A stretch of DNA of 64,000 nt from Ceratodon purpureus (lineage: Eukaryota; Streptophyta; Bryopsida; Pseudoditrichales; Ditrichaceae), in contig CM026426.1 of NCBI GenBank assembly GCA_014871385.1, positions 90,316,893 to 90,380,892 on the forward strand, given 5' to 3'. Position 1 is the stretch's first letter. Every line of letters begins with the position of its first letter. Shown in pieces: positions 27,315 to 48,952 of this stretch. The translations under genes and the position numbers were made by a program. The notes under the pieces were generated by a model, which saw nothing but the letters and a program-made list of their open reading frames with translations, ran no database searches and was not told the origin of the DNA.

Positions 27315-27834
27315 GGCGTCCACTGACCCGTCCAGTGTGCCTGCCAAAACTTGCCGGAACCAAAAAACAGGCAATCTGAATATTTAGTTGTCCGTCATTG
27401 TGGATGAGTTGTGCAATTAGCAAGCAATCTTGTACTGGAATCCTCGTGCATCTCTCACTTAAGGTTACTCTGCTAGTGGTGTACAGGAGCTGTCGGCAAC
27501 TTAAAGCAGATGCGTAGGCTGCTCAAGGGAAATAGAGGCTCGCAAGGGCTGAACATGCTCTTTTTACGCTTGCAGTGTGTCAATGAACGAGAGTGAGTTC
27601 AATCTTTTGATATTAGGCAAGTGTGTGGTTGACTACCATCATACCATGCACTGTAAATCCACTTTCTGACTTCTCTGAAACAATGTGTTCTTCGAGTGTG
27701 CCAATGAGTTTAGTTTTCACGACTATCAGATTAATTTGGATTTGTTTTGGACAAGGTTCTGAACCGGACTCTTTCTTGCAGATATGGCCATTGCAATAAC
27801 ATAGAACAATTTTTTGTAGCCGCTACATATCAGT
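27315..27834. other. No gene recognised
   Basis: DNA between the RRM fragment and the MULE end. No frame of note on either strand. Confidence 0.4.
27827..27834. repeat. Left target-site duplication of the MULE
   Basis: ATATCAGT is repeated at 48953-48960. One neighbouring base on each side also matches, so the duplication is 8-10 bp, in the range expected for Mutator-like elements (usually 9). Confidence 0.85.
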
Positions 27835-28030
27835 GGGAGAAGGCTAAATCCCCTGTATTGAGCTAAGCTGGCGCGGCACGCGCGGCCACCCCCGCCGTGG
27901 TAACATGGTAATTCCCGGACGCGGTAACTTACCCAACCCTCGGAACACTGACTAGTGTTACAACAATCTCCCGCCGAGACACCCATACCATCCATCCCAT
28001 GGCCCACAGTGACGTCACGGACACAGCCGC
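27835..28030 (+). repeat. MULE left terminal inverted repeat
   Basis: Pairs with 48714-48952. The best core is an 80-base block beginning TAACATGGTAATTCCCGGAC, with about two mismatches by eye. The inner end carries AGTGACGTCACGGACACAG, where the right arm has AGTGACACAG. Confidence 0.9.
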
Positions 28031-29978
28031 TTTGTAATCTGTGTGTCACGAGGTTAGTTCATTTCCGATTAGTGTTCCGAGGGTGTTTGAGGTCCTTTGA
28101 CAATTAGGGTTTAGGAGAAGCTCAGTTGTAGCGATTACTGAGATTCTGGTGACTGTAGGAGGTTTAGGAATGTAGGGTGCTCTTCTTCTCGATCGACCTG
28201 TTCACTGCAAGCGGCAAATCTGCAGAAGAGTAGCGAGACCGTCTGATTTCGGTATCACTCCGCTTATCGCGTACGAGAATGGCGAGTCGCGGGTCGGTGG
28301 GTCTTCTTAATTCATAGCGGGCGTAACGGGAGCAGGATGCGCCGCTATGGAGAACGACGAAGATATGGGTAGGATCGGCTATGTCTACCACCGGCAGTCC
28401 CGGAGACGTCATTTCCCAACGTGTACTTTTTTTCTAAACCTTCCTCGGGATGTTGTAGGTTCAGGGTCGCGTTATATTTCTTTGCGCCACGTGAATCTTA
28501 CTTCCCTAATTGATCGTATTGTTGTTGCGCCTAAACGATGTTTCCATCATTCACCTTCGTGTTGTGGTATCCCTGCTTTGTTGCCCACTAGGGTGTGCGC
28601 TATTTTGTTTAGGGTCCGCTTGTTTTAGTCTCCGCAGTCGAATCTTTATATCTTCATTGCATGCTTCAGGCGCGATTGATTCATATCCAGAATGCTAGAA
28701 AAGTTTTATTTTTTAATTTTTTAAAAAAGGGTATAGGGTTTTAATTCAGTGTACCAAACGTCACTTCAGTGTCTCAAGACGTGTCATGGTTGTCAACTGA
28801 AGATTTATGATTGACGGTCTGAGTTTTAGGGTTCACAGTTCTTACGTACGCATTAATTCTTGGGCAATTTAATGCTAGGGTTTAGGCATTAATGTTGACA
28901 TGACCTTCTCGATGCAGAGGTTTTTATTGCTGGAAGTAGGATTAGGGTTTAGGGTAAGGTCCCGGGGACGCCCTCTCATTCAAGTTAAGGTCTTCATCGT
29001 GAACGGAGAAGTGCGGGCGCGTTCTTGACGGGTTCATATTTGTCGATGCTGGTACTTTCTATGGCGCAAGGTCGTTAGCGCTTAAACCGCAAATCACAGG
29101 TAAAACCCTGAATGTGTGACACTGCTTTCTAGGATCTTTTCTGTGTTTAGGGTTCTGTAGAACTCTTTGTAGAGGGGATGGGTTCGTCCGTTCTTAGATT
29201 CAGTTGGAAGACGGTTATGCTGGGTGTTTAGGATATTGAAATCTGAAGGTGCGCATTACAGGGCTTACGTTAGAGCCTTACAGTTTGTTCCTTACCGTGC
29301 AAACAAGTGGCGTGGGAGTTGTTCAGGGTGAGTTCATTTGTGTAAGGGGAGAGAAAGTGCGCACGAGTATAGGTTTTAGGGTCTAGGGTTTACGTGTTTA
29401 CTCTGCAGCAGCTCTTATATGTAAACGGTTTTTTTCTTGAAATTAAGGGTTAGCTTTGCAGGGATACGAGGTACGAGTTGCTGTAAATTGATTTTTTTAT
29501 TTTTTTTTTCTGTTTCAATCCATCCACAAGGGTGCAGATGCTATTGGAGTACATCATACATCGAATTCCGTAAGATATTTTCCATGTAAGACGATTCCAC
29601 TAAACCTAACCACTGGAAGAGTTTATCAATGTATGTCTCTCCGTCTTCGTTGCAATTTTTGTTCTCTTCTTAATTCTGCCTATAGCTCACCCCTTCTTTC
29701 TCTGTTGCTTCTATAGTATGATGGTGCGCTGAAGATCACACATGATACATCTCTGGTAAGAATTCTCCCATGCTATGGCTTTTTTTTTAAATTGTATGCA
29801 ATTACTCACTTCGTTGGATTCAATATGTTCCTGGATGGTGAAAGTTGTGACACTGCGGTCTTGGATATCTACAGTGGCGGCGTTTGGGGGATACTTGAAG
29901 AAATCCGCTTTCCGGATCCTCTGTGAGTTCATTCTCGACGGAGATCAAGCCAATTGACATACAAGTGGCTAGCACGGA
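28031..29978. other. MULE 5' region of the Ulp1 gene, no exon assigned
   Basis: Contains repeated plant telo-box-like AGGGTTT/TTTAGGG pieces (near 28875, 28945, 29147, 29375). Two GTGACACT octamers (29116, 29847) are also here. The plus frames at 28347-28628 and 29775-29957 are not convincing exons. The promoter and first intron of the 29979 gene probably lie here. Confidence 0.5.
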
Positions 29979-31412
29979 ATGAAGGCAATGGACAACAATA
30001 GACCAGTCACTCTGACTGTAAAGATTTACGAGAGGATGTACAATGTAAGGTACCCTAGCCAGAGGCGAGTGAATGATCTAATGCGCGAGTTCGCTACTCA
30101 GTACAAGGGGAGTGTGAAGCTGGGGACCGGGCGTCGGTATTTCGTGTGCATACACTGTGGTACGTCAGATTTCAGCAACAAGCTTATGCTCAACGTCCAC
30201 AGGTTTGAGCAGAGGTGTGACGGAGCCGTATACTCTGATGGGACCAAGGCATTGCTACTCCCTTACCCTGATTTCCTACAGGGACAAGGGAAGCTGGTGG
30301 AGGTTATAGGTAAGCAGGAAAGTGGGAGGGTAGTGGGGAAGAAGAGATCCAAAGGGTCCACTGGCGGAGAAGAAGACGGGGGTGCGGGGGAAGATGGGGA
30401 TAACATGGGCGAGGATGAGGAGTGGGACGAGGAGTTCCAAGGACCACCGCCATGGAAGAGGCATAGCGTCGGTGTCACAGAAGGTGAAACCTACAGACCA
30501 CGGAAAGTAATGGTTCCTGCAGCCGACCTGTTCTACGGGGCAGCACCGCCGAGGTCGGATAAGGCAGCAGCGAAGCCGCGGAGGGTGAAGAGAAACACGG
30601 ACGCACCACGGGGTGCAGAGGGTAGAAGGGGAGGAAAGGAGGATAAGGGGAAAGCTCCAAAGAAAGTGACACAGATGGGTGGGACTGGCCGGGGCTTGAT
30701 GAAGGTGATGGCCGGGGCTGCGAAGGATGAGGACGCAACAAAGGCTGTGAAGACGGATCCGGAAGGGCACAAACAAGCCGGGAGGGACGACCGAGGTAAG
30801 AAGGTGGAGCGACGTGACGAGGGGAATCTGGACATTACGAACGAAAAAAAGCGGAGGCGGACCGTGCTTACATGTGCAGCTGCAGCGGTCAAAGGATCCG
30901 TGTCGGAGCCGTCAGCCCCAACCCAGGAAGCACGGGGTCAAGCAGCGCTAGCAGTGTCACGGCGTCCCCACCCGCGCCAAGATATTCAACCGGAAACCAG
31001 TCCTTCAGACGGAAAGGCGGACCTGAAATTCCACGTGAAGACCAGGATAACGGACCATACTATACAGAAGAAGGAGCTTAGACTCCCTTCTAAGTCCAGA
31101 TACCCGGTAAGCGTCTGGGTTGAGGATATGTTACATATTGCTAGAAAAGAGTTCAATATAGAAGAGGATAATTTCGTGTTAGCGGCTAGTTTAGGGGTAG
31201 TGAGGGCGTTACAAGAGAAGAATAATAGTTGTCACGTACCTAACTCATCCAAGACATTGAGGCCCTCACCACCTGCTATTGTAATCGACCAGGTGACACG
31301 TGGGAGGTTAGTAGAAGAACAGTGTGTGACTAACGCAGAGGTGATGACTGCCGAAGATAGAGAGGATGACGATGGGTTAATCCAGGAAGAAGGCTACTTT
31401 TATGAAGATTGA
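29979..31412 (+). CDS. MULE Ulp1 gene, N-terminal exon: C2HC-like finger and basic disordered region
   Basis: An open 477-codon frame. Residues 50-80 contain FVCIHCGTSDFSNKL followed by NVHRFEQRC, a C-x2-C-x14-H-x4-C arrangement that could bind zinc. Residues 120-290 are low complexity: acidic (GEDGDNMGEDEEWDEEF), then Lys/Arg-rich with many Gly and Ala, a likely disordered nucleic-acid-binding stretch. The C-terminal 100 residues are ordered (YPVSVWVEDMLHIARKEF). The frame is GC-rich compared with flanking DNA. It is followed on the same strand by the exons leading to the Ulp1 domain. By position it could correspond to the DNA-binding part of a VANC-like protein; no sequence similarity to VANC can be claimed. 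Confidence 0.65.
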   Translation: MKAMDNNRPVTLTVKIYERMYNVRYPSQRRVNDLMREFATQYKGSVKLGTGRRYFVCIHCGTSDFSNKLMLNVHRFEQRCDGAVYSDGTKALLLPYPDFLQGQGKLVEVIGKQESGRVVGKKRSKGSTGGEEDGGAGEDGDNMGEDEEWDEEFQGPPPWKRHSVGVTEGETYRPRKVMVPAADLFYGAAPPRSDKAAAKPRRVKRNTDAPRGAEGRRGGKEDKGKAPKKVTQMGGTGRGLMKVMAGAAKDEDATKAVKTDPEGHKQAGRDDRGKKVERRDEGNLDITNEKKRRRTVLTCAAAAVKGSVSEPSAPTQEARGQAALAVSRRPHPRQDIQPETSPSDGKADLKFHVKTRITDHTIQKKELRLPSKSRYPVSVWVEDMLHIARKEFNIEEDNFVLAASLGVVRALQEKNNSCHVPNSSKTLRPSPPAIVIDQVTRGRLVEEQCVTNAEVMTAEDREDDDGLIQEEGYFYED

Positions 31413-31457
31413 GGATGGCAAATTCCAGCAGCGAATGGTCGCCAAGGGCCGGACCCA

Positions 31458-32906
31458 ATGGAGATACAGAGTTCACATTTGAGCCTCGAGGACGCTGTTT
31501 CGCGGATGGTGGTTTGGGACAATACGCACACACAGAGCCAGGAATTGCAGCGCTACTGGGCGGAGGGGAAAGGGATCCCGGAACCATTTAAGTACCACCA
31601 TGAGATGGAGAACAGATTCCTGGATCGAGAGGAAGAGCTTCAACGCCACGAGAGGGTTTACGTAGCCTTGGAGCAACGACGGGCAGATGAAGCTATACTG
31701 GCGTTGACGATCCCGACAGCACCGGAGAAGCTTGCGGTGCCAGCATTGTACCACCTCCAGAAATTTGACGAGTCTGTGACACTTCCATGGTCTTGGGATC
31801 ATGATAGTGGCAAGAGTTTCCGCAAGGCTTGGGAGGACTCCTACACTAAACGCGAGTTCCAAGTTCAACTGATGGCTTGCCTCTGGTGGTGGACGGCGAA
31901 AAAGGTGAACAACACTACTTGGACTGGCAATACCTCGTGGTGTTACACTGTACTTGTGACACTGTATTCTGTATTTCCGGTGTTGTGGTGCGAGGGCCAC
32001 TAACTGAATGCTCTGTATTCTCTATAGACCCATAAGAACTTACGAGACGATATCAAATCGGTGCGTCACTCCATCTCAGCCGCAATGGATCTACTAGTAG
32101 CAAGTAGGGGTGCAAATGTGCCATACCTAGAATTAGACAAGGTTTGTGCCTACCTCCAGTGGACCAGGGACTACGCCCATTTCGTCAAAACTAGCAGGGA
32201 CTACATCAAGAAGAAGAAGGCGGAGATCAATGCGAAGGTAGCCAAGTCCAGGGAGGAGTTTCGGGAGTAACACGCACTGTTGCGGGAGAAGATTCTTTGG
32301 GATTGGTGTCCCATCTGGAGGATTCTGGCTGACCGCAAGCAAATACTGGACGAACTTCCAGCCATGCCATGGAGTCACCATAGTATGCGCTGTTTTCCAT
32401 TTGTTCATAACTGTTTATGATCGTTCATCTGAATTCTTTTGCTTGTCTCTTATGATTGGCATGGAATAAACGCAGAGTGCGAATCAGATGTAGTGCGATG
32501 GAAGTTAACTCGGCATCGCGGGGAAGCCAAAAAACCAAGTGCCCTAGTGCTGTTGTTCAAGATTTACTTCTTGCATGAGTATGGTCTTTACCGTCAGCTA
32601 TCCTGTCTAATGTATGGGATTAATGCTTCTATCGTACGAGAGAGTTGCCGACAGGGTACGAAGATTAGAAAGGCCTTGTCCACTTTGGTGGCACAAGGTC
32701 CGTTTCTCTTTGTGGAGATTGAAGACAGTGGTGCAGCCCTTGAACACAGGTTAACTCTGGATATCAAGCAAATCAGACAGGGAGGAGGATGTGGATTGGT
32801 GGATGGGGTGATTGATTGGATCCGTGGAGTGCAACTACAGGCGCTTCAGGATCTGGCTGCCGAGCATCCGCAGAGATTTGATATAGCTTGGTGTACATTG
32901 CGTTAG
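31458..32906 (+). CDS. MULE Ulp1 gene, middle exons
   Basis: Three protein-like segments: 31458-31910 (helical, HHEMENRFLDREEELQRHER; donor GTGAAC near 31910), 32030-32270 after an acceptor TCTATAG (HSISAAMDLLVASRGANVPY, Lys-rich helix), and 32475-32906 (VVRWKLTRHRGEAKKPSALV, LDIKQIRQGG). The segments end at a TAA (32268) and a TAG (32904), which may be lesions or lie in introns. No domain is recognised. They are placed in the Ulp1 gene because the reading direction is the same and no other start or end is evident. Confidence 0.45.
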
Positions 32907-33685
32907 TGGGAATGGGGGTCTCAGTCGAAGCACTGGGGCAGGACTTTACAAAACAGAGACGACCGGGATATTGGGTGGGTACAGTCTCTGAGTACGCCCA
33001 CGTGGAGCACAGGGGTGGCAAAGCTGAGGGCCGATATCCTCAAAGCCTCTTGTGACATTGGAGGAGCTGTGGAGGTTGAAGACAGGGAGCACTGGAATTA
33101 CTGTGTGGGTAGGATTACTGAAGATAGCCCTATGACTTCTTGCCGTCGTGTTCATCGACCGTGATCAGGAGGAGAGGCCATGCCCGCGTCTGAAGCAAAT
33201 TCACTTTGGGCACACACTGTTAAGGGATCTTGTGGGGTACGGCCGGGGAACAGCGACTCTGATGACAACTTCGACCAGCCAAGTTGTCAGACATCGATCG
33301 GGAAGGGGATTCCAGGTTCTATAGTGCGAGAGGAAGATGTGACACTTTCACACTCACCCATCACGAAGTTTCAGTTGGAGACCACGCGCAGGCACCCTGC
33401 TTAGGTGACATCCTATGTCACGAGTGCAGTCGACGAAGTCATGACGAAGGCGAAGGGAAGCACAGCTGCGGATGCAAACGTCGAGGACAACCCCTATGGT
33501 GAAGTGAGTCCTATCAAGGCTAGTGCTCCTCGCACCACTGATGCAGAACAGAGTGCACCTGGTCTAGACTGTAGAAGTCTTGTAGTGACACTACAGAAGA
33601 TGGAAGAAGGGGCACTTGATGTTGGTGGAGCGAAGGGGAGGGGCGAGTTGGACGAACACGTAGAGACACCGATTTTCCGGAAATA
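32907..33685 (+). CDS. MULE Ulp1 gene, linker exons
   Basis: Broken open segments (33180-33404, 33405-33686) encode polar sequence without domain. The last one (YVTSAVDEVMTKAKGSTAAD) leads directly into the frame at 33686. Three of the dispersed GTGACACT/GTGACAC motifs are in this stretch. Exon borders are uncertain. Confidence 0.35.
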
Positions 33686-35206
33686 ATGCAGGTGTTGCAG
33701 GAGGAGAACCTTCCCAAGGATCCCGAACCGCTAATGACAGTGACACAGGTTGTTAGGGGCGCGCATGAAGTGGACAACATCCCCCCACAGGAGTTGCAGT
33801 TTGTCTTTAGCTTGTCACAGTGGATGGATGGCGGTACTTCCGGGACGTGCAGAACCCCTCCCAGAGGGGTGTTGCCTGAAAGCGGAAACACTTCGGGGGG
33901 TGAACGTGCTCAGGAGGGACCGAATTCCACAGCTAAGAACCTCGTAAGTCTATTCGATATGGAGGCGGAGATGGAGACGGTTCACCAGCTAGTTAGACTC
34001 TCCCAATCCTGCCAGGAGACACGTGATACTGGCTCCGCTTCTCAGAAGGAGTTAGTACATCCATCAGGGTCGGGTGAGAAATTGAAAGGGACGTTTGACG
34101 GTGCGTCTCAGGAATGCAGTATTGCAAATGCATCGAAGTTCAATAAGCGCAGCCTTCCACAAGTTTATGAAGATCTTGGGCTAGATACAGTGCTCACGAG
34201 TGTGCCTTCTACGGGCGAGGGCTACCCCGTAAGGATGAAACGATCTTCTTCAACCACAGCGGGAAGGAGGTGGAAGTGAGCCACAAGGCCATTCGCGACT
34301 TGAAGAAAGCTGAGACCAGGCTGGGGAACGACATTGTGGACTTCCTCCTCTCCAAAGTGTACATGGCGTATCTTGAACAGAGACGCCACGAGGTTCATAT
34401 TGTCAGTTCCTGGGTGAGTGCTCTCCTCAAGGCAGTCATGTCTGGCACGAAGACCTTACAAAATTTTGCTCGGGATTACTTCCAGCTACCTCCTGGAGTG
34501 GAGGTTAATCAGGTGAAAGAGGTTATTATCTCGTGCGTCTGCGGTGGACACTGGTCTGTGTTGGTATTCCAACCAAATCGTGTCTTCCACTTGGATTCTC
34601 TATCAGGCTCAAAGATTCACGACCCGAAAGGCAAGCACTCATAGTTCGTGAGGTGGATGAATGCAGCGTGGCAGTGTCTACGTGGCGTCGAGGAGTTTCC
34701 AGTTGAGGACCTTTCCTCCATCACATTGTTTCAGCAAGTTGGAAACAACGAGTGTGGTCACCTATGCATTTGTAACATCATGTTATATCTTAAGGTTCGA
34801 AAATGTCGCCCTCCACTGTCAGGACTTGCTGGAACTTCATTACCATTGAACCGTGACACTGTATTGCCACTAACAATACTTTTGTGAACCCTGTGTCACA
34901 ACGGTTTCGTACTCGCGACTCTGCGACGGGAGGGGTGCAGTTGATTGGGGAATACCTCAAACCCCACACAGCGGTGCAGATGAACAAGGAGATGATGGTT
35001 TTATTTGCTCAGGAGCTCGATCCTACACGGAGGGATAGTCGTTACAAGGCCCCTTTCTCCCAGATGCAACCTGGAAATGCTTCAGACGGCGATGAGGACG
35101 GCAACCTGATGGACAGGGCCTCACCGCCACTGCTGATCCTCCCGAGGATTACTCGTGCGTCTCAGAGGGCAGTGGCTGCCGAAGTCTCTAGTGAGGACAC
35201 CGTGTA
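33686..35206 (+). CDS. Ulp1-like C48 cysteine protease domain (SUMO protease family)
   Basis: After a 190-residue acidic lead (33686-34279), the C48 fold begins with AETRLGNDIVDFLLSKVYMA (34310-34365). CGGHWSVLVF (catalytic His, about 34540), FHLDSLSG (Asp, about 34590) and TLFQQVGNNECGHLCICNIM (oxyanion Gln and nucleophile Cys, 34725-34785) follow in the family order, so all catalytic residues are present. Ulp1 enzymes process or remove SUMO. Several plant MULE and CACTA families carry such domains. One TAG (34642) splits the domain between Asp and Cys. The tail to 35206 is acidic and Arg-rich. Downstream, AGTGTCAC at 35211 touches the stop codon. Confidence 0.8.
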
Positions 35207-37316
35207 GTTTAGTGTCACAGCGTCGTCAGTCGTCGGTGGCAGTAGAAGGTGCAACCGTGGTAGCCATAATGTACAAAGTTGTCTCATTTACAATAGTGAG
35301 GACAGATGGTGGGTGTTAGGATACGGACTTTCACCCCGACATTTTACAAATCAGAGGACACAGCCAAGGCTTGACATATAGCGTTGTACCTTGTAACATT
35401 GCAAGATTTGATTTTTAAATTCGACAGTAGCATCCTTAACTGTGTGCATGTTATCCTTAGGGCGATTAATTTGAAAAAATACACGGCCTTAGCAGCCTTT
35501 GGGAACCAAGGAAATCGAAGAGAGAGTTTATTATAATACTGGTATACTTGCATTTTTTAGGAGGAATTCTTCACATTAAGAATCTCTGGTCTTGCCTGAA
35601 GTACTCTATGGAAGTGGTAACTGAACTGAATCGCTGCATCCCCCCCTCACGTTAGTCATTTCTGTTCCATCCTTTTAAATATCTAGAAATGCACCTCCTT
35701 CGTTGCATTTATATTTGGTTGTATATGTGCACTTGACATCAAATAATAACAAGAACTGTTTATAACCCCTTTTGTAGTACAATTTTTTCATATACAACTT
35801 TAATTTCTTCATTCATTTACAAATATTGATTTTAAACATAGATTACATCCACAATAAACTAACTAATTGATTCATTTTTTTTAAGTTTGCACAAACATAG
35901 TTATTAAATATTTGTTCTATGCGAGAATTTAGTATTTCTATACAAAAGTTTTTGGCAGATTTTGGTACATGTGAGGCAGATGGTTTGATCCATAATGTGT
36001 TACATGATGTCATAGTGCACATGTTGTACTAGCCATAGTTGGATGATTCAAACAGCATGCAGTACTTCTATACAAATTTTCTGATAAAATATCAACATTT
36101 CCAAGAACAAATCTTAATTATATTAATTTAACTCAAACACAGTAGCAATCAAAGTCGTAACTTGCAGAACATGGATTTTATAGATTGATATTAAAATCTA
36201 GCTAAGGTACAAAAAAGTTCAGGGTTAACTTGTTGTGATAATTTGAAGTTACTAGGACCCTTAAGGTTATTTTACAACCATTTTAAGTTGGGTAGAGACT
36301 CTCTTGATTATATTGTTGGAATTTTACACTAGTAATATTTATCGCTTAAATTCTTCCTTAATGTGTAACGATCTTATTCTTTGGATATCCTTATCATTTG
36401 GAAAAAAAATAAATTTCCATAATGTGGAAAATAATACGATATTTTGTGCGCGTGGACAGTAAAAAATTGTACTTCATCAATAAATGTATTGAAAAGGATC
36501 TTAATTTGATTTGTGAATAATTTTAATTTTTTTTTTTTTAATTCATGTCCTTCTCTCTATTCTAATGTATGCAATTGTAAGAATTCACATGCGTATTTTA
36601 AATTTTGCGGGACTCATTTTTTTGTACTAGAACCTAATCCCTAGCATATTTTGCCTATATCGCTTCAAACTTTCTTCACTATGCTGAATACCCTATTTTC
36701 TATATTCTTTATACTGTACTATTCAGTTTGAAAATAATTTATGATGCCCTACCATTATTTACTGTATTCATTGTTTCTAGTAGTGAATGATTTGTTCACT
36801 TATATTGCCCTTTCTCAAATGTCTCTTCTTCAATGATGCCACCTTTATTTTTTTAAAAGACTTATGTAACTGCTCTTTTATTTTTATTCCTATTTCTATT
36901 TCTATTTCGATTTCTATTTCTTATTTGTATTTCTTTTCCGTAATCATGCATGCTTGTTTTTTTTAAAATTTAAAGTTACTTAATTTGATTGAACCAATAT
37001 CACGACGTCATCACTTCCTTCCATTTGTAAATATCATAATCAACACCATTCCAATACTTGTAAAAATAATAATTAAATCCATTAAAGGGTGTACTGTAAA
37101 TGTCAAGATGAGAAGTTTGACGGTTTTCCAAATTCGGTTCAGAAGCCACCAATCAATGTTCCACTATCAGAACTTAGCGATTCTGGCTTCTCCTACATAT
37201 TTATAATCTAGGATTAATCCCCAACTATATTTGACTGAGAAATTCAGCCTGTAATATATACTTCCTAAGCAACAGAGTCACAAAATTCCAACCGGATCGA
37301 GTTAATGCGCGGAATC
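35207..37316. other. AT-rich spacer inside the MULE
   Basis: Two kilobases of strongly AT-rich DNA with poly-T/poly-A runs and no usable frame. The only GTGACACT-type octamer is at the extreme left (35211); 35220-37500 has none. Confidence 0.6.
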
Positions 37317-37715
37317 CTATCGAGGACTATAGTCACTCAAGTTGTCAAGCTCCTCTTTGCCCATGGCCCCGTAAAACTCCTCCCAGAGGCCGTTCTTCAT
37401 CGCGTTGTTCCATACTTCCTCTCTGCCCACGTCGTCTGATGCGTACTTGTGCTCTGAACCCGCAGTATAAAAACCCCGCCAAGGACACAGTCCGCTGTCA
37501 TCTGGTGACACTGGAATGCCGCCGCAATTGTGGTCTATCCCTGCAGAAACCATAGCGTTCACCGAGGACGCTCCCTCGCCATGGACACGCTCCAAAAATT
37601 TGAGAACCCACAATGTTATCCTCATAGCAACAAACGTGGAGCCTATCAATAGCGGAAACAATAACAAAGACGATGCGGTTACTCGTAACAATGCCGTATC
37701 GTCTTCAGGGTCCAT
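37317..37715 (-). CDS. Small membrane protein ORF carried by the MULE
   Basis: A 132-codon frame with its own TATA-like box about 55 bases upstream. Residues 11-37 (VTASSLLLFPLLIGSTFVAM) form one membrane segment. The soluble part contains HNCGGIPVSPDDSG and ends in an acidic helix (WEEFYGAMGKEELDNLSDY). No stop or shift interrupts it, unlike the transposase nearby. I know no family. It could be a captured host gene or an accessory MULE protein. Confidence 0.5.
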   Translation of the reverse strand: MDPEDDTALLRVTASSLLLFPLLIGSTFVAMRITLWVLKFLERVHGEGASSVNAMVSAGIDHNCGGIPVSPDDSGLCPWRGFYTAGSEHKYASDDVGREEVWNNAMKNGLWEEFYGAMGKEELDNLSDYSPR

Positions 37716-37767
37716 CGCTGCCTAATGAACTAAGAACTCGAGGAAGAAGGGACGAGAGACGCGAACC

Positions 37768-37778
37768 CCGTCTCTATT
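37768..37778 (-). promoter_or_regulatory. TATA-like box of the 37715 ORF
   Basis: GCATAAATAGA on the minus strand lies about 55 bases before the ATG at 37715, a fitting distance for a TATA box with a short leader. Confidence 0.45.
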
Positions 37779-37779
37779 T

Positions 37780-38845
37780 ATGCAAACGCGGTGTGTTGCG
37801 TCAGCATGAAGCAACCGAAATCCGTATAACAAGACGTATTGATCGTAAGACAGACCCCTCTGTCGAATGTCACGGTCCACTGTGTGAGTAACGGTGTCAG
37901 ATTCACTGACTCAGTGTCATGACATTTTACTCGGTGATGCTCACTTCCACTGAAGTAATTATAAGTGAATCAGTATCTGCAGATCGTTGCTTCAGTACTC
38001 TGGGAGGATATATGCTATTGGTAAACCTGTCCTACTCGTACTGACCTGGTCGCCGCGCACTAAGATTATGTAGATCCATGTAACAGTTTCCAAGGCAGTC
38101 CGTGACTCTGAACATACTTTCATGTGCACAGTCCGCTGTGGACCTACTACAGCGAACAGAGATCGACCAAAAAGAGGACGCTTTTATTCCATGTACTCAT
38201 CAACTTTGATACAAGAGGATTCCGACTACGGAGTCTGAGGACGTTTCCAAATCATGTCCATGTTTCATTTCAACCTCCAGTATCTGGCGGGCCATGACGC
38301 CTTCAGTTCTGCAACATAAGAACCGTCATACTGACTCAGAGGAGAACCTCGAATCAGACGCTCGTCACCGACACTGTAAGGGTGAGTCTCTCTTCCGTAG
38401 ACCCGTGCTCGTGCTCCTCTACGACGGTGAAGTTCTCCCACCTGTTCGTCAATTCCCACGTTAGCATAGTTCGCACCGCCATGTCTGTGACATGTTGAGA
38501 AGAGACACAGTCATGTGCGACAACAGGCAAAGGCGGAGATGATGGCACAATCTAATCTTCTACTAGTGTCGAGGAACTCCACATTACGAGGATCTCTTCG
38601 ACCTCTCTCTCAAGATCGACAACACTATCAGCGTCCATCACGACACACACTAAAGGGTCTAACAGACTCCAAATGAAACATATACTCTATAAGACGAGGT
38701 AGCCCTTATATACAGGCTGCGAAAGCGATCGAGGTTCCCCACAGGATTCGATACCCGGTTATGGCACCTAGTGTCACGGTTCAGCGTCAAGGCATTCTCG
38801 TTACACTGAGTTTACACCCCTGAGCGTTCCACCAGTGTCATTCCA
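37780..38845. other. MULE spacer with unassigned minus-strand frames
   Basis: Minus frames at 38265-38459 (VGELHRRRGARARVYGRE, YDGSYVAELKASWPARYW) and 38354-38548 look partly protein-like but match nothing. They follow the transposase stop at 38846 and might be a decayed downstream exon. Confidence 0.3.
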
Positions 38846-39365
38846 CTAGCACCCGGACATCCTCAAGCGCCTTGAAACTCTCTTTCCTCCACGCTCTAGG
38901 AAATCCATATCCCGGACTAGACTGAACCTCCTTCCGTCGTTCACGGTTCCTAACACTGGATAATCCACCAGAGGATGCACGGTTCCAGTGCGAATCTCGG
39001 CCTTCAACGAACGAATTCGCCCTACAACTTGGTTAAGTTCCGCGACAAGATGATCCATAAGCACAGGATCTCCTACAACGTCTTGAGACAAATCAACCAC
39101 CAACTGCCGCAAGGTATTCACGACATCCTTTAGTGGTACAGATTTCTTGGCAGGAGTTGGCTTAGGAGTACATGCCGGAGAAGGAAAACACTCTGTATGG
39201 TCACTGACCGTAGTTGGATCCAAGACGTGCCGCATACCCCGTTGGACATTCCCAACCTGCCTGCCACAGAAACGAGCAATCGTGCCCTCTGCAACATCCG
39301 GGCAAATCATTAATAAAACTTTCACCACGTGCTTACAAATATTGCCGCGTGCTGCCTAGGCGCAA
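38846..39365 (-). pseudogene. MULE transposase C-terminus with SWIM zinc finger
   Basis: On the minus strand CSCA, a TAG at 39356-39358, then AARGNICKHVVKVLLMICPD gives the CxCxnCxH pattern of a SWIM finger, which follows the catalytic domain in plant MULE transposases and binds DNA. The 130 residues after it are helical (LKDVVNTLRQLVVDLSQDVV), ending at 38846 with a basic tail. One stop falls inside the finger. Confidence 0.7.
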
Positions 39366-39406
39366 CTGCAACCAGCCCATTCCTCCCCCGGGTTATGGAC
39401 CACGTA

Positions 39407-40095
39407 TCAAACATCCCGGTCCGAGGTTGATGTCACAAGCGCACAATTGCCCGGTGACTGATTCAGCGACACATTAGAGTCTGGAATCAAGCGGGCCTTC
39501 ACGATTGCAGAGACAGCAAAGTCTTGCATTTTTTGATTATCAACAAACCCGCTGTCCTTTCGTAAGCCTTTGTACCAGAAATGGTCATGGACATCTTTGG
39601 TTAGGCATGTAATGCTCCAGTCGACCCGTCTCCCAACCATGCGACTCCTTTCGGACTTCAGGACTGCCTTAAGGAACCCATGATAACCTTTGATAGCTGC
39701 ATTAGTATCCTGGCCAGCGTAAGGCAGGTTACGGTACCCCACCACCCACATGTGGACCTTGTTTAGCCACTGAGCTTCCATGTACGTCCAGAAGTCTTTC
39801 TCCCTAGGATATTTTTTACTCAGAGCTTCCAGTCTATCCTTTGCCCAAGTCTGAGATGCAGTCCTCGAAGGTGATGTCCTGTCGTACATCATGAGCCCTA
39901 ATTCACGAAGAACTTCAGCCCTCCGTGTAGTATCCTTTATTTTGTAACAAGAGTGCTTCTGCCATGCACGTCTAACGTGCCACAGACACAGGAATATTGG
40001 AATTCACGGCCAAACCTCCCTGTACATGCCAAATAAACGGCGTACATATTAGCGTAGTCAGTGTTCTAGAGAAGACTCATTTCGCGAGACAGGGA
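39407..40095 (-). pseudogene. MULE transposase, WH and TNAAIxGYH region
   Basis: Minus strand. IPIFLCLWHVRRAWQKHSCY (about 39945-40003) is the conserved C-x-W-H block of MULE transposases, and GQDTNAAIKGYHGFLKAVLK (about 39650-39710) the region downstream of the catalytic core, followed by DVHDHFWYKGLRKDSGF. A TGA lies just before the block (40004-40006). It joins the SWIM part at 39340 and the catalytic exon at 40.1-40.4 kb in correct order. Confidence 0.75.
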
Positions 40096-40164
40096 CATCT
40101 ACCTGGGTCATTGTGACACTAATTCAAGCAAGAATCGTATACAATACCAGTGTAGGACATACGT

Positions 40165-40680
40165 GATTGCGTTAATTTCTCCTTGAGCGCAGTCCACTAT
40201 AAACGCAGATGGCCTCCAGTCAGGACATTCTTGTTTCATCCGGTTCTTTAGCGACCCCATCCATGGAGTTAAGTCCGTCTCTGCGCATCGCGACGTCTGA
40301 ACCCACGCGACGGAAATGCCTTGATGCCATTCTTCGAACACCATCAGGGTGTACAAGGGGAACTGTACAAGCATGGTGTATGTAAGTAATTTACGGTTTA
40401 GCAGTGTCACGAGTAACTCCTATCAACGTAACATGGGGCCTGAATCCTACGTAACACTCTTACAGGGTTCAAAAATACCTTTTTATCGTTTGTCCCGAAA
40501 GTGGCATCAATAGAGATACCTCCGCCGTGACCGTATTTGGCCATCATCAGCCTTTGCCAACTTGTCTGTATCCCGACCGTGAAGGGAATGTTGTCGCCGT
40601 TTAGTTGGCCTTCGACCTAGACGGGACTGGTCTGATTAGTTTCGGTGTAATGGAAAACTTTACGTCGGTTTCTCTGAACC
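40165..40680 (-). pseudogene. MULE transposase catalytic core (two Asp motifs, intron between)
   Basis: Minus strand. GGISIDATFGTNDKKVF (about 40490-40540) holds the first catalytic Asp. After an intron (donor CCT|GTAAGAG near 40462, acceptor TTGTACAG| near 40367), FPLYTLMVFEEWHQGISVAW then PSAFIVDCAQGEINAI (about 40180-40225) carries the second Asp. A donor CAC|GTATGT follows. The exon-intron layout is intact though stops occur around it. MULE transposases excise and reinsert elements with matching inverted repeats. Confidence 0.75.
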
Positions 40681-41294
40681 TACATACGCACACTCTGTGC
40701 GTCATTCGAGTGTAACATGTATGTTTCCTTCGCATGCTTCCGAGCAATGTTTTGAACGTCCTTAGGTGTTATCAACAAGTCCCGAGTGATAACCCCACCG
40801 TCCGCCTCCCATTTGCGTAAAAACTTCAGGTGCTTCTTCATAATTTGGTGAACCGTGTAGCCCTCGTGCAAGCAGTCGTCAACAAATTTTCTAATTGTCG
40901 GAGAGAGGCGCGCTGCGTAGCATCCACGATCACCGAATTTCATACTGCCATGGACAACGACCCCGTCCTTGTTTACATGCTGAGCCTCGATGACAAAGAC
41001 TTCAGCTATGTGCGGTGCGTGGAGAAGAACTTTCACTATAAATCGTGCCAAGCAGCCTCGCTTGATGGACATTCCCCACTTCTTCCTGGAATCTCTTGGT
41101 TCAATATCTCGGGGGTCCTTTTTCTTGCTCTTGACTTTTACTCCCTCACCGCCTTGCTTAGAGTCATGCAGAGGACAATCAAGTGCATTCAGATGCTCGT
41201 TTCTTTGGTCAACTCCCTCCGAAGCAGTACATGTTGATACACCGACTTCGCCCGGTACACTTGCCGTGACACTAGGATCTACTCTTTCCGGCAT
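40680..41294 (-). pseudogene. MULE transposase N-terminal DNA-binding region (FAR1-like)
   Basis: Minus strand, 204 codons. KKWGMSIKRGCLARFIVKVL followed by VFVIEAQHVNKDGVVVHG resembles the C-x-A-x-I/F-x-V strand of FAR1/MURA N-terminal zinc-binding regions. The helical part (PTIRKFVDDCLHEGYTVHQI) is followed by IARKHAKETY. It ends at a TAG (40680) immediately before MULE sequence that continues in the same frame into the catalytic exon. Confidence 0.65.
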
Positions 41295-42591
41295 GAAATG
41301 GTCATGGCAGTCTTAGAGGAAGTCTCACGTTCTGCGACGTCCCCTTCCCCAACATGGTCATTCGATCCCAGGCTCCCGTCGACTACATCACCAGTATGTG
41401 CGGCTACTTCGTGAACCCCTGTCCCCCCGGTGACATTGTTATAGGGGGCCGGATTCCCTTCCGCCGACGTGCAAAAAGAAGTGAGAAGTGGGCCTAGTCC
41501 TTGGAAGACAAAAACCCCAGTTTTCTGTGGACTAGCCTTCCCAATGGTTTTCTTGACATACTTCCGCCTGGTAGTCTTCTTAGTGGATGTTGGATCAGAC
41601 ACTGCTGCAATGAGGTCAGGAAGTGTCTTCTTCTAGGGGGCACATTTACGCGGTGTTTTGACAACTGTTTCGTCCACAGTGACCTGTGAATGCTCGAGTG
41701 AGTAAGTTTCTGAGTTGAGGGTATCTTCACCTGCGTCCGACCCGTCATTGCTATACAGTGGATGCCAACCTTCCTCCAAGGGGCACGTTGTCGAAAAACC
41801 TTCGGCTGCGGCTCGAGCAACGTGGGTCTCCGACTTGGAGAAAGTTGGGCACATGCTGGGCCATTGCTTCCAACTGCCAGTTCTGTACTAGGGGCATCAC
41901 CTAAGACTTCAAGTTTCTTCTTTCTAGGAGCCCTTTTTCGCGGGACTGTCGTAGGTGGTTGAAGTCCTCTAGAGTCACCAACAGAAACACTGGAACACTC
42001 AGATGGAAGTTTGCTTTCTACGGTCTTCTTGCGAGGGCCTCTCTTACGTGTTGGTTTTGGTGGGTTACCGTGACACCCGTTGGTCGTCAATCCTTGCACA
42101 TGTCTTGGGCCGGCAGGAAATATATCTAGGGCTGCAACGTCAACCACATCCCCGGTATCTATCGAACATCTCGTCGTTTTCTCAAGGAGCACGGCAGATA
42201 CGGCGACCACAAGAGCGGGATGCATGACATTCGGCGCATTTGGCAGTTCGGGACACTGACCTTCGTTCTGTGACACTGCTGTTTTTTTCCTTGGTGCACG
42301 CTTGCGAGGAAATTTTACAGGAACTTCGTCCTCCTCTTCTTCAGGGATCGCATTCAGATCAAGTGGAACAATCGGCTTCGGCTTGAATTTCCGTGGCGCC
42401 CTCCTCTTAGGTTGTCGCTTTGCGGAGGACTTCTTGGCAATACCTTCCTCACTTGCTAAGGTGACCTTTGCAATAGTCAACTTCTTACGTGCTCTAGGTA
42501 GGAGATCTAGGGTTATATTTTTCACTATTCCGATGTAGTCTTCGCAGTGACCATATTGCAAGACATACGCTAAAGCGTAATCATCAGCCAT
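41279..42591 (-). pseudogene. MULE transposase N-terminal extension with repeated PRKRAPRKK motifs
   Basis: ATG at 42591 (MADDYALAYVLQYGHC). The region contains a basic motif repeated about every 50-70 residues: RRAPRK, FPRKRAPRKK, TRKRGPRKK, VPRKRAPRKK, FRQRAPWRK, and a further TPRKCAP before a TAG at 41633-41635, then TTRRKYVKKT. The motifs resemble AT-hook-like minor-groove binders joined by acidic/polar linkers. Frame changes occur near 41850 and 41500. The LTR retrotransposon begins 19 bases upstream of the ATG and separates it from its promoter. Confidence 0.55.
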
Positions 42592-42605
42592 GAGAACGGC
42601 ATGCT

Positions 42606-42610
42606 TTGAT
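42606..42610. repeat. Target-site duplication TTGAT (left) of the LTR retrotransposon
   Basis: TTGAT at 42606-42610 and again at 48429-48433, exactly flanking the two LTRs. Confidence 0.9.
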
Positions 42611-43067
42611 TGTTAACTGGAGACCCAACTGGTCTCCTCCTTTAACCCCATCCAGTCCCTTCTCAGTCTCATGCAGGAAGTTTCCTGACAGTCATCCAGT
42701 TCCTGCGGATGAACTCTGTCAGTCGGCTGGATGAACTCTGTCGGAGCCGACTCGATGAACTCTGTCGAAGCCGACTAGATGATTCTGTCCGTTTTCAGAG
42801 AGTTTAAGAGGCAGGTTTAGGGTTTTGGGAGATCATTCTACACTAGAGCACGTAGAGTCAGAGAGGTCTGAGAGCTGTTAGGAACTGCTGTACCATGTGT
42901 TTGGGGCTGTTTTGACCCATTTTATGCATTTTTGACCTCTTTTTGCACTTGTATTGTACACTTCCAGCAACTTATGAGTGTTTGGAGCACTTAGCTTAGT
43001 TGGATTTTGTTGGGTTTTGATGAGATTGTGAAGGCTAGGGTTTAGTTGGTAAATCCTCCCTTTACCA
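42611..43067 (+). repeat. 5' LTR
   Basis: 457 bp, starts TGTTAAC and ends TTTACCA. It holds three GTCGGC/GCCGAC hexamers near 42720-42780. Matches 47972-48428. Confidence 0.9.
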
Positions 43068-44312
43068 TTGGCGACCATGCTTTAGTTCGTACCATGTGAT
43101 CTCCTGCTTGTTGTAGGTTGTTTCACACACTAGAGAGCTCTTGAAGTACACAAATCAGGTCTGCAGAGGTGCAGCAGTGACTGTCAAGAGTCTTTAGGGG
43201 TGCTGAACTGCTGTCACTGAATTCTTAAGTGCTGAACAGTTGCTGGCAGAGTGTGGGAGTCACTGCAGTGTTAGAATCATCCAGCTGAGTGCTGTCCTGC
43301 CACTGGCAGGATTCCAAGACTTCTGAAGTGAGGAAAAACTGTTGCAGTAGAGAGGGCAGTGGCGGAAAGAGTTTTCAGGTGTTTTTAGAGGTGGAAACAT
43401 TGGTGCACTGACGGTTGCAGTCCAATACGTGTTCAATAAGCGTTAGCAGCAGGGGCGGCTCTGTTGCAAACTGGTGGGCGCAGGTGCTGTGAGGAGGTAG
43501 AGGGCCAGATTTGCCTTGGCGTCAATCCTTGTGAACTGAGGGCAGTTCTAGAGCGAAAAAGGAGATAGGGCTGCTACAGGTCAGATTTATATTCCCATTG
43601 TAAAAAGGGGCAAAAGGTAAGTAACCCGAAATTTTAGGAATTCAAATTTTAAATTTCAGATCCGAAAATTTAGGATCTTAAAAATTTGAATTTTGAATTT
43701 TGAATTTGAGGACCTCAATTTGGGACCTCGGTCGGCTCTGCGGACCTCGATTTGGGGATCTGGGTCGGCGGTGGGACGTCGTCTTTGGGGACGTCGGTTG
43801 ACATTTGGGACCTGGACCTGAGGTTGGCACATGCCAAAACAGAGTGGTAATTTGGGTTACTGAGTGCATTTGGGCAGATTCAGGGTGATTTTTGTTTCAA
43901 ATATTGTCAGAATTGTAACTAGCACTGTAACCACTGGACTGGATTTTCTAAGAGTCAATACAATGTGAAAAAGGGGATAGGAACTAGTTAGGGGCAATTT
44001 TACTGAACTGCCTTGGTTTGTTCCTATTTGCTAGAACAAAGTGTCTGTAAACACTAATTAGGCCACACAGTCGTTTGTAGGGTCGCTGAGTGCTAAAGTG
44101 GCAGGGACTACAAAATGTAAGGGAAGGAGCCAAGTATTGGTAGCTGACTGATTAGAGGAGGCCAAACAGAGCCGACCGCAGCAGATAGGGAGTAACAACC
44201 GCCAAGACTAGGAAGAACACACAGTCGACTGAACGTAGCCGACTGATAGTATTAGGCGTTGACACCCATGGAAGAAGGTGACTCGAATGATCTATAAGCT
44301 GAGAGACAAGCC

Positions 44313-45161
44313 ATGGAGGGGTACAAACGTTGGCTACAACATAAGGAGCAGACAGTAGAGCCGACGTCACCTGAGGTACGCAGCCGACTTAGCTCGCAGG
44401 GCAGTGCAGCTCTGCAGGAGGGTGAACTCATTGACATGGAGGTCGAAAATGACATTTCAGCATCAGATGGCAGGACACAAGAGAGCCGATTTGAAGAGGG
44501 AAGGCAGTTCGAAAAAGGGGATAGACTGAACAGTCATCTTGATCAAGCCAACATTCCCTGGAGATATGAGGACAAGAGAAGGACTGCGTCATTCAAGGGG
44601 GACTTCTCCCTTGCAGGGGACGACTACAACCCATTCTATGAGGAGAGACGTCAGACAAAGGAGGTCATCGCGGAGCCGACTCAGTGGCCAAGCACAGTCA
44701 CTGGCAGAGCCGACATAGAAGCGGAGCCGACCCGGCTACGCAGCCGACCTATATCTCCTGAGCACCTGCCAAAAACACTAGAGACACTGCCAGCCTCATT
44801 TCAGAACTTAAGGCAGAAGTTGGAAGAAACCAGGAGTCGATCAGCTCAAGATCATGGGCAAGTGAACCACCAAGATAGTATACCTGGCAGGAATGTTCAC
44901 TTCTTGGATGAAGTTCGAGTGCAGTTGGGATGGGAGCTGGAAGAAGAGGACCAATGGGCACTTGAGGCCTTTGCGGCGGACTTACTAGCCAAGAAGGAAA
45001 GGGCTAGGCAACACCAAGCAAGTCAAAACCAAGGCAAGCCGGACCCAGGAAAGTACCTCATGCAGCTAGAGGCTTTGCAACAAGGTGCAGCATCGGGAGT
45101 GGCATCACTGCACCACTGGCATACAGAGCCAGAGTGGCCAGAGAAGAATCCAACACCATAG
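44313..45161 (+). other. Leader-region frame of the LTR retrotransposon
   Basis: A polar frame of 282 codons upstream of gag, rich in Arg, Glu, Gln. No domain recognised. It carries many AGCCGAC motifs, which read as Glu-Pro-Thr or Ser-Arg-Pro. Fossil element part. Confidence 0.5.
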
Positions 45162-45427
45162 GGGGCCGACTTTGACCGCCGTGTTGAAGAAGCAATGCAG
45201 AGATTGGCAGCACTTCAGTTGGCAGCACAGCAGTCGGCACCGCAGCACTTAGCAGCACAGGAGTTGGCTACCCAACAGAGGGAACAAGAACGGCTCAAGC
45301 GAGAGAAGCATGAGCATACACGAATCGAGAATTGGTGGAAGGAGCAAAAAAGGAGGCAGGAGTATGAGCGCATTGGAGAGAACCAGCAAGGCCGCTTGAT
45401 TTATCTACTTTTCATTTAGAGTGGACT

Positions 45428-47039
45428 GTGGACAGGAGCGTTTCAAGACCATTGCTTGTAGAGCCGATCTTGACACCACATAAGTTTTCCGGATATTTGG
45501 GCAGCCAGACAGGTGATGTATACGACGCTCAACAGCCGACTCAGTCAGTGTGGTATCCTAGGCAATCTGCGCAGCCAGCTGTTGGAGACTCAATACCTGG
45601 TCGAATTGATGTAGCCCGGTCACTGGATGCTCGGCCTACTCCAGCACCTCCGGGCTATAGTTTTGGTGATCTTTCGCGAGCCGACCGGGCAGTGCCGACT
45701 GCCACTAAAATACAGACGACTTATCCGGCCACTTTAGCAGGATGTCCCTCTGTAGTACGAGTAGTGCGCATAGCCGACTTTAAGTTAGCTCCTCCAAGTC
45801 CTCCAGTCAGTGCAGAGCGGAAGCAATTACCGTACCGGGCATACAAGGAGGGAACTGACCCTGATGCTCACCTGAGGCATTTTGACAAGTGTGTTTGGTA
45901 CAATGGAGAGACAGATGAGATTGTCATCATCCTCCTGTTTGGAACAACCCTTGTTGATAAGGCCCAGACCTGGTTTAATGATTGGCTGGATCATCACCCC
46001 AATTGTACTTTGGGAGGGGGCAAAGGAGGCGTTCAAGATGCGGTTCAGGGAGCAAGATTCTGATGAACAGGTGTTCATGACTCTAAGGACCTTCAAACAA
46101 GGTGAGGGGGAGAAGGTTCAAGACTATTATGAGAGGTTTACAAAACTGATCAATTGTTTGCAAACAAATGTTGGAGAAGGCTTCAAGCTGACCTACTTCA
46201 GGGCAGGCCTGCTGGACTACCTGAAGGTCACCACAAGCGCCCATATAGCCAACATTCTGGCTGATTTGCAGGAGGTAGCTCGGCGCTGTGAAACCAACTG
46301 CATCAATGCCTTAGGGGAGGAACTGTACTTTCAAGCCCGGCATACAGAGCCGACTAGTGGACAGCCGACTACCTTATTAGCTCAGGCGGAGGGAGCAGAG
46401 TCAGATAGTGGGAGGTATTGCACAGTCTGCAAGAAATACGGCCATGACGATGCTTACTATTTTTTCAACCGAGCCAACCCGAACAATAGACTTCCACGAC
46501 CTAAAGGTACACCAATTGTGGGGGTCGACGAAGTAACTGCTCAGCAACACGGCAGCAATTCGAGCCGACCTGTTAACAGCCGACCTGTTGACAGCCGACC
46601 TGGAGGGTACCATCATGATGGCTATGGCCAAATCGATACTTGCTATATTTGCGACGAGACCGACCATCAAATGCGCAACTGTCCTTACAAGTTGAGGTTT
46701 GAGCAATTTGTGGCATCTAGAAAACTTGGTAGTGATCATGTAGGTGTCAATAATGTGGAACTGCAGGAGCTGGAAGTGGAGGATCTGGAACTGCAAGAGC
46801 CATCTGAGGTGGCAATTTCTCTGGCCAGAGCAGCAAGACTGGAGGTGGGCCTTCCGTTGGAAGACAAAGAGGCAGAGGAGGAGCTTGAAGGGGCCACAAC
46901 AACCAACTTGGATGCCAACGCACCTACGGCACCAACTTTGGATGGTGACTGGATTGGTTTTATTAACCTGATTGTCTACATGATATCCCAAAGAAGGCGC
47001 CTGACAGAAATATGGAGAGTCTTCCCGGAACCCAACTAG
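45428..47039 (+). other. gag region of the LTR retrotransposon
   Basis: Contains the retrotransposon gag domain (YYERFTKLINCLQTNVGEGF, TSAHIANILADLQEVARRCE) and one zinc knuckle CYICDETDHQMRNC near 46641-46682. Gag forms the particle shell and binds RNA. Fossil, not intact as a whole. Confidence 0.8.
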
Positions 47040-47255
47040 AAGCTTTGGTGCAAGAGATTAGCCGCCAAATCCTGGAGACCCCCATTACAGTATCGTTAGG
47101 ACAACTGTTGGCAGTGGCCCCTACTCTCACACAGTACTTGAAGAGTCAAGTATTACGAGCAAGTGCGTGCAAGCCGACTTCGTCTGTAGACTCGATTGAG
47201 CCGCCTGTACCAGCCGATTGTACCGAGCCGACTGTGAAACAGGTGTTCACTTGAG

Positions 47256-47846
47256 TTGATTCCAAGGGTCTCCAATGATCCAAGGATACAACCTACGGTG
47301 ATTGTTGGAGCTGTGAATATTGATCTTGGTCGCCCTGTGATTTATGTACAAGTGGAGGATTTGACCTTTAAGAACGTACTTGTGGAAGAGGGCTCTACAG
47401 TCAGCTTGATTACAAAAGAGGAGAAGGTGACGGTACTAGTGTTACAGAAGGCCATTGGATTCCAGCAGCGGCTGCTATTTGTCAACACTGCATTGAGGGA
47501 GACAATCTTGGCAGCAGAGCAGATAGCAGTACGGCAGGAGGATTTTCACTGCCCAACTGTTTTAGTCAGTGAGGTCCCAATTCGAGGAGGAAGCTCCATA
47601 GGTGGTTTCTTCGAGCCAACTCCTTTAGAGAGCCGACCGCCACAGCCCTCTTTAGAGGACTCTCGGGATGATTATCAGGGCGCCACTTCAGATTTTACAA
47701 AGTCGACTTTTACACAGCCGACTGTTTCAAACTTAAGCTCCACCAATGGGCCCAAGGAAGAGCGACACCAACAATGGACGACTTCACGGCAACAGCTAGC
47801 ATCACTACTAGTTAAAAAGTTCCATGTGTTTGATACCAAGGATTAG
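47256..47846 (+). other. Protease-like region of the LTR retrotransposon
   Basis: The segment VNIDLGRPVIYVQVEDLTFK then SLITKEE is placed and shaped like a retroviral-type aspartic protease. No polymerase follows; the purine tract (AAAAAAAGGGGATAA, about 47956-47970) and 3' LTR come next. Fossil part. Confidence 0.45.
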
Positions 47847-47971
47847 TTTTCTTCTCCACCATTTACTAGTGTAGTCGGTTTTTTTTTTCTGCTTAGCCTT
47901 CTTTCCATTTACCAGCCTCTCTCTTAGTCTCCATGCATTCTGAGGGCGGAACTACCAAAAAAAGGGGATAA

Positions 47972-48713: not shown

Positions 48714-48952
48714 GCGGCTGTGTCACTGTGGGCCATGGCCATGGCATGCAATGGAATGGATGGTATGGGTGGGTTAGTGTCTCGGCGGAAGATTGTTGTA
48801 ACACTAGTCAGTGTTCCGGGGGTTGGGTAAGTTACCGCGTCCGGGAATTACCATGTTACCGCGGCGGCGGCGGCGAGGGGTCAAGACCGCGGCCGCCGCG
48901 GCCGCGCGTGCCGTACCAGCTCAGCTCACTACAAGGGATTTAGCCTTCTCCC
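48714..48952 (-). repeat. MULE right terminal inverted repeat
   Basis: About 40 bases longer than the left arm because of a GGC/CCG-rich expansion (near 48860-48905) and an ATGCCATGGCCATGG-type duplication. Contains GTGTCAC at 48721. Flanked by ATATCAGT at 48953-48960. Confidence 0.9.

Follow-up and report, generated by a model that had tools for sequence, protein, structure and literature searches.

The 64-kb window analyzed here, a stretch of the 110.5-Mb contig C6 of the moss Ceratodon purpureus, contains a Mutator-like element (MULE) in which the octamer GTGACACT is scattered over both strands. This word is a family-specific code: it is enriched in every sampled member of the family to which the element belongs (hereafter the marked MULEs), is absent from seven sampled MULEs of other families, and persists in subfamilies that can otherwise scarcely be aligned. 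Within the marked family, GTGACACT is selected as DNA.

Occurrence of the Octamer in the Window Element and Its Relatives

The window element extends from 27836 to 48951 (∼15.4 kb when a nested long terminal repeat (LTR) retrotransposon is subtracted) and has the ends GGAGAAGG...CCTTCTCC. It is identified as a MULE by its transposase, its terminal inverted repeats, and a target duplication in the range of 8–11 bp, here a perfect 10-bp copy of CATATCAGTG (27826–27835 and 48952–48961). Fifteen exact octamers were found in the element. Eleven are on the + strand (29116–29123, 29847–29854, 31776–31783, 31956–31963, 33339–33346, 33585–33592, 34853–34860, 37505–37512, 40113–40120, 41266–41273, and 42270–42277), and four are on the − strand (30953–30960, 35211–35218, 38770–38777, and 40403–40410). 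The site at 30953 lies within ORF A, a gene described below, and those at 41266 and 42270 are antisense within a transposase piece and the open piece 41497–42612, respectively. All 15 had been placed at these positions by an initial annotation of the window, which had also noted, correctly, that the nested LTR element is free of octamers (none in 42613–48273) and that few occur elsewhere; a single further exact copy, at 49522, was present in the rest of the window.

Dinucleotide-preserving shuffles (n = 300) of positions 28501–42600 gave a mean of 0.61 octamers with a maximum of 3, and the commonest 8-mer of any kind in any shuffle reached 9. For the heptamer core, 21 copies were observed versus a shuffled mean of 2.4 and a maximum of 8. 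These counts rule out a chance origin; the earlier estimate of the chance expectation had been fewer than one octamer and about two heptamers. Six heptamers additional to the octamers had been listed; these are real, to within four bases, but two more in the MULE, at 28043 and 34893, had been missed.

Full-length copies were sought in the same genome with the left end of the element (47 matches, best 40 of 69 candidates scored), and the matches were read as about twenty copies. Both ends were located 15–18 kb apart in eleven copies, ten of which were analyzed (e1–e10), the eleventh (C13) being outside the set. A further element, c1, was picked out solely by its cluster of octamers, giving 12 full elements with the window copy. 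The window copy, e1–e10, and c1 contain 15, 19, 18, 19, 15, 22, 17, 18, 21, 16, 17, and 28 octamers, respectively, a total of 225 in 194 kb compared with 7.9 expected from dinucleotides. The expectation for each element was 0.5–0.7, and the reversed string, used as a control, occurred once or twice in each. With words of two letters or fewer set aside, GTGACACT was the top 8-mer in each of the 12 elements. All 12 have terminal inverted repeats of about 170–320 bp and, by eye in the printed flanks, 9–10-bp target duplications, that of e4 with one mismatch.

The eleven elements other than c1 share 70–98% identity where alignable (50–100% of their length). By contrast, c1 can be aligned to the others over just 2–8% of its length; over ∼350 residues, its transposase exon shares 55–60% identity with the full-length transposases, and parts of ORF A and ORF B are matched as well. 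Over the 12 elements, 141 octamers are on the + strand and 84 on the − strand, and the largest gaps between sites are 1.5–2.8 kb in elements of roughly 16 kb. When each element was divided into sixteenths, the left-most held 3 of the 225 octamers and the right-most 13. Spacing was more even than random in the window copy (P = 0.007), e5 (P = 0.0085), and e3 (P = 0.04), with values of 0.05–0.10 for e1, e2, e6, e7, e8, and e9, but no more even than random in e4 (P = 0.44), e10 (P = 0.31), and c1 (P = 0.86), and regular spacing is not claimed. A sister word, GGAACACT, is enriched in e10 (9 versus 0.6 expected), in the family piece L024 (5 versus 0.2), and in the window element (4 versus 0.6) and is also present in terminal repeats. 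Given that the terminal repeats of e9 and e10 are fully identical and that both copies retain long open genes, the family may have been recently active.

More distant members were represented by nine 5.6-kb pieces, hand-picked to span 64–89% transposase identity; the transposase search scored the best 150 of 718 candidates. These pieces contain 9, 12, 4, 4, 11, 13, 15, 9, and 6 octamers (0.2–0.3 expected in each), which is 83 compared with 2.4 expected, and the octamer was the top or joint top 8-mer in six of them. A tenth family piece, L052 (4.5 kb, 91.5% identical to L026), contains four. No octamer was found in 37 kb of other MULEs, sampled as seven 5.3-kb pieces from a Pfam search that include three (L033–L035) from one family. 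Given that their own expectation was 0.96, this zero is meaningful only against the ∼43 that the density of the marked family would give. A short word at high density thus distinguishes 12 of 12 full elements and nine of nine pieces from all seven pieces of other MULEs, strongly supporting the earlier proposal of an element-specific dispersed code. The nearest other family sampled, L033–L035 (35–36% identity over 174 transposase residues), has a word of its own, TACCCAT, extended to AATACCCATCAY, with 17–21 copies per 5.3 kb; its arrays are partly tandem with a period of ∼46 bp and lie on both sides of the transposase, mutually inverted.

The word was counted over the whole 362-Mb assembly; the initial annotation had proposed such a count for the heptamer core. 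The bare octamer was not in excess (14080 versus 14012 for the reversed string), so its overall frequency is uninformative, and clustering and the extended motif are the informative measures. The pattern YYGTGACACTG occurred 2512 times versus 720 for its reverse. Its first 100 listed places, covering 13.06 Mb of contig C1, formed ten clusters by eye, with single sites in addition. Transposase or ORF A matches fall on six of the clusters (1.33, 6.03–6.04, 10.90, 10.98, 12.46, and 13.05 Mb), and none of the best 150 matches of either search falls on the clusters at 6.02, 6.39, and 12.14 Mb. The remaining cluster is a tandem repeat at the start of C1 (G000 C1:2403–3935), which has five GTGACACT at ∼381-bp spacing and carries the extended motif.

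Selection on the Word and Its Full Form

Eleven copies were aligned, with five lineage representatives that are 71–81% alike. In ordered comparisons between these lineages, the octamer was intact in 182 of 337 cases versus 438 of 7393 for 8-mers situated 12–60 bp away; because lineages are shared among the comparisons and the copies are related, these are not independent trials. Expressed as unordered lineage pairs, 91 of 167 were intact against a background of 11.4%, with flanks 46–78% identical. The exact octamer occupied 40 alignment columns in at least one copy and was common to all five lineages in six of these. It was exact in all eleven copies in two, columns 4975 and 16897, which correspond to the window sites at 31956 and 40403. 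Given that 16 of the 40 columns were occupied in one lineage only, sites have also been gained and lost. Among the distant pieces, the octamer was kept between L029 and L030 (9/17, P = 1.8e-5), L024 and L025 (6/15, P = 0.014), and L025 and the full element e10 (6/13, P = 0.036). The annotation had named two outcomes that would refute its proposal, and neither was observed: motif density far exceeds that of shuffled sequence and also exceeds that of the other MULEs sampled, and between related copies the sites are conserved in number and often in position. At columns 11970/11971 and 12362/12363, the orientation of the word flips between lineages, one base apart, through the near-palindrome GTGWCAC.

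The preference of the flanking bases was determined in six representatives. A pyrimidine was found at −2 in 98 of 114 sites and at −1 in 92, and a purine followed the octamer in 98. The fuller form of the word is YYGTGACACTR. The one-base variants GTGACATT, GTGACACA, GTAACACT, GAGACACT, and GTGTCACT were above expectation, as would be the case for weak or decaying sites.

When translated in open frames, the word reads as VTL (28), SVT (29), xDT (18), xCH (5), or xVSx (6), counts that use crude gene bounds and include related copies. This variety means that protein sequence does not explain the word. It occupies all five stop-free combinations of strand and phase, the sixth, not seen, containing TGA. 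Codon use as a cause is thereby ruled out, as had been argued from the placement of sites in coding and non-coding DNA alike. The presence of the word on both strands makes an RNA-level function unlikely and, together with its coding and non-coding placement, the five phases, and its conservation between lineages, indicates selection as DNA.

Proteins Encoded by the Marked Elements

ORF A (29979–32000, + strand) is interrupted in the window copy by a stop at 31410–31412, after 477 residues, and is open for 673 residues in e9. In one set of ten rows, the N terminus is 57–79% identical to that of the window copy. It is a conserved domain with a C2HC zinc finger of the pattern C-x2-C ... F ... 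L-x2-H-x5-C, in which Cys57, His74, and Cys80 are invariant in all ten homologues aligned for the zinc ligands and Cys60 is present in nine. No Pfam family matched ORF A. Its N terminus aligned with classical C2H2 fingers in the PDB (best E = 0.0059), from which it differs in that the last ligand is Cys, not His. ORF A and the transposase are on opposite strands and point toward each other. Among the best 150 matches of each search (from 404 candidates for ORF A), 61 transposase loci lie off C6; 47 of them have an ORF A in this arrangement at a distance of up to 45 kb, and 43 at up to 20 kb. The 14 loci without a listed ORF A include c1, which has one, so that these lists undercount. ORF A was also beside nine of nine sampled distant elements.

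The remnant of ORF B (32028–35204, + strand) consists of several open pieces. His147, Asp162, Gln208, and Cys214 of its C-terminal region are invariant in all seven aligned sequences (P0097 left out), and these residues support a Ulp1-like assignment. Pfam and the PDB do not: one of the seven sequences gave a weak C48 match (E = 0.052), and a PDB search to E = 10 gave no Ulp1 match. A large non-transposase gene with a Ulp1 domain had been assigned to the protein starting at 29979. The Ulp1-like residues are instead in ORF B, and the 29979 protein, ORF A, carries the zinc finger with no Ulp1 match.

The transposase (− strand) is present as pieces between 38849 and 42612 (38849–39355, 39410–40003, 40683–41312, and 41497–42612) and is cut upstream by the LTR element. 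PF10551 was found in many homologues, mostly at 43–46% identity; the pieces of e9 fell below the Pfam cut-offs (SWIM, 18.9 versus 19.6 bits). The transposase is common to the whole marked family.

In L026 and L027, the word is looser (GTGACAYY): GTGACA is followed by CT at 8 of 30 sites and by TC, TT, or CC at 17. The finger helix of these two, also found in L049, is NKLRLNQH, and that of the other 13 rows is NKLMLNVH or NKMMLN(R/K)H. L052, which lies beside L049, has four GTGACACT and three other GTGACAYY. The ratio of strict to loose sites was 12:20 in the three NKLRLNQH members versus 189:72 in the rest (Fisher P = 1.7e-4, the copies not being independent). Given that this covariation represents one event at most, it is a hint only that ORF A is the reader.

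Discussion

The data provide evidence for a real, selected, family-specific code in moss MULEs. They suggest self-recognition by a protein, probably the element's own, and perhaps resistance to host silencing. The explanation proposed, which on the sequence evidence appears evenly balanced between right and wrong, is that YYGTGACACTR is a dispersed self-recognition site, that ORF A binds these sites, and that the bound protein counters silencing. Here, the 15–28 sites would be bound by a DNA-binding protein of the element itself, most likely the zinc-finger ORF A, which would so cover the roughly 16-kb element; the bound protein might then, less firmly, keep the element free of host silencing by DNA methylation or heterochromatin. 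The Ulp1-like ORF B could possibly assist by acting on SUMO-dependent silencing. With silencing countered, the genes of the element would stay expressed. ORF A is the best candidate for the reader, and its putative anti-silencing function stands at about one in two.

A number of observations weigh against this explanation. Conservation of the octamer between L026 and L027 was not significant (2/6, P = 0.41), and the octamer was not the top 8-mer in L026, L027, or L032. As a rule, a single zinc finger reads only 3–4 bases. The homologue P0091 (one of the ten aligned for the zinc ligands) has Ser in place of the second zinc cysteine, Cys60, and the structure model of the ORF A N terminus was poor (pLDDT of 59.8). 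A Pfam scan of ORF A and ORF B of e9 gave no match to DUF1985, the VANC domain, at E up to 1. The covariation of word and helix is not firm evidence: the third member, L052, weakens it, and the strict word is common to the NKLMLNVH and NKMMLN(R/K)H groups despite their different helices. Depletion of CpG and CWG (CpG observed/expected), considered as a footprint of protection, showed no consistent trend with distance from the sites. Finally, most VANC sites of Arabidopsis form tandem arrays of a single orientation in non-coding DNA (PMC5735166), whereas those of the marked MULEs are spread over both strands and over coding and non-coding DNA.

An unlikely alternative is that the sites serve transposition itself and are bound by the transposase or by a partner of it, for example ORF A, with roles in end recognition, synapsis, or target immunity. 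Each terminal repeat of the window element contains the near-variants GGAACACT and GTAACACT, at 27942 (+) and 27954 (−) in the left repeat (27834–28003, + strand, as aligned) and at 48810 (−) and 48798 (+) in the right repeat (48748–48953, − strand, as aligned). The exact octamer occurs within the terminal repeats of e10 and c1. These words keep the alternative alive, and it would also suit the presence of the transposase throughout the marked family and the arrays of another word that flank the transposase in L033–L035, as end-binding repeats would. Against it, the sites are spread over the whole element, with a deficit in the left-most sixteenth that the right-most does not share, and cutting at dispersed internal sites would presumably harm the element. 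The known transposase sites of other plant elements are, moreover, terminal or subterminal.

It is improbable that the word is read by a host DNA-binding protein, for example a transcription, open-chromatin, or insulator factor, for which the element has gathered sites. The palindrome TGACAGTGTCA, which has AGTGTCA in common with the motif, is the target of a plant QALGGH-type C2H2 zinc-finger protein (PMC4186855). The octamer flanks do not favor its other half, however (second position 3′ of the octamer: C 34, T 30, G 27, A 23), and this EPF-type palindrome was rejected as the true motif. The lack of a genome-wide excess and the absence of the octamer from the seven sampled MULEs of this genome that belong to other families also argue against a host reader. 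Chance, shared ancestry, or codon use, whereby functionless octamers were inherited together, might draw on the relatedness of the copies and on the L026/L027 result but is a very remote explanation, already contradicted by sites that outlast their flanks, by the 28 octamers of the barely alignable c1, and by the five strand-phase combinations and single-lineage columns.

The initial annotation had drawn a parallel with the VANDAL MULEs. In Hosaka et al. (2017, PMC5735166), the word bound by VANC21 is YAGTATTAY, which lies chiefly in tandem arrays in the non-coding DNA of VANDAL21, and VANC6 targets carry other words, AGTTGTCC/AGTTGTAC. On the same source, both systems are MULEs with large non-transposase genes and an 8–9-bp word that is dense in the family and rare in others. 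The target duplication is about 9 bp in both, and the terminal repeats are about 170–320 bp in the marked MULEs versus 46–174 bp or none in VANDAL; the VANDAL values, like its SWIM domain, are given in PMC6446971. The candidate reader of the marked MULEs is a zinc-finger protein, unlike the DUF1985 protein VANC, and nearly one word is kept down to 64% transposase identity, whereas the words of VANDAL21 and VANDAL6 differ. The parallel is thus apt for the arrangement, which is family-specific and dense, but not for the VANC domain or for tandem arrays; a VANDAL-like arrangement with a protein unrelated to VANC appears the likeliest by analogy.

In maize, the En/Spm-encoded protein TnpA binds a short, repeated word and is able to restore activity to methylated copies; its sites are subterminal, and En/Spm belongs to a different superfamily. 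This likeness is drawn by description. The MURA site of MuDR is longer and terminal only; MuDR and the marked MULEs, compared by description, have in common a MULE transposase and motif-like words inside the terminal repeats.

A broader reading, possible though held with some doubt, is that moss MULEs evolved, independently of VANC, an element-encoded zinc-finger anti-silencing system, perhaps with a SUMO protease, whose targets lie throughout the element, including coding sequence, as a selected overlapping code in probably hundreds of copies. If true, plants distant from Arabidopsis have a sequence-specific anti-silencing of separate origin, encoded by transposons and built on an unrelated DNA-binding protein; an anti-silencing code can overlie coding sequence; and a natural module for short-word targeting is on offer. 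Even alone, conservation of the motif cleanly exemplifies selection acting on a code dispersed through a transposon, and it makes self-recognition of marked elements directly testable. In the open-licence literature searched, nothing was found on a GTGACACT/AGTGTCAC code, on anti-silencing by moss MULEs, or on a Ceratodon Mutator.

Other Features of the Window

The nested LTR retrotransposon (42613–48273, + strand), which has a gag match and lies outside the code, repeats a word of its own, AGCCGAC. Of its 27 copies, 24 are in the + orientation, the next base is T in 16 cases and C in nine, and three coding phases are used; the rest of the window has three copies. The word resembles the drought-response core RCCGAC. 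Two further regions without GTGACACT are a DUF4218 open frame at 1871–2746 and, at 17449–21128, a reverse transcriptase frame that follows a weak endonuclease match.

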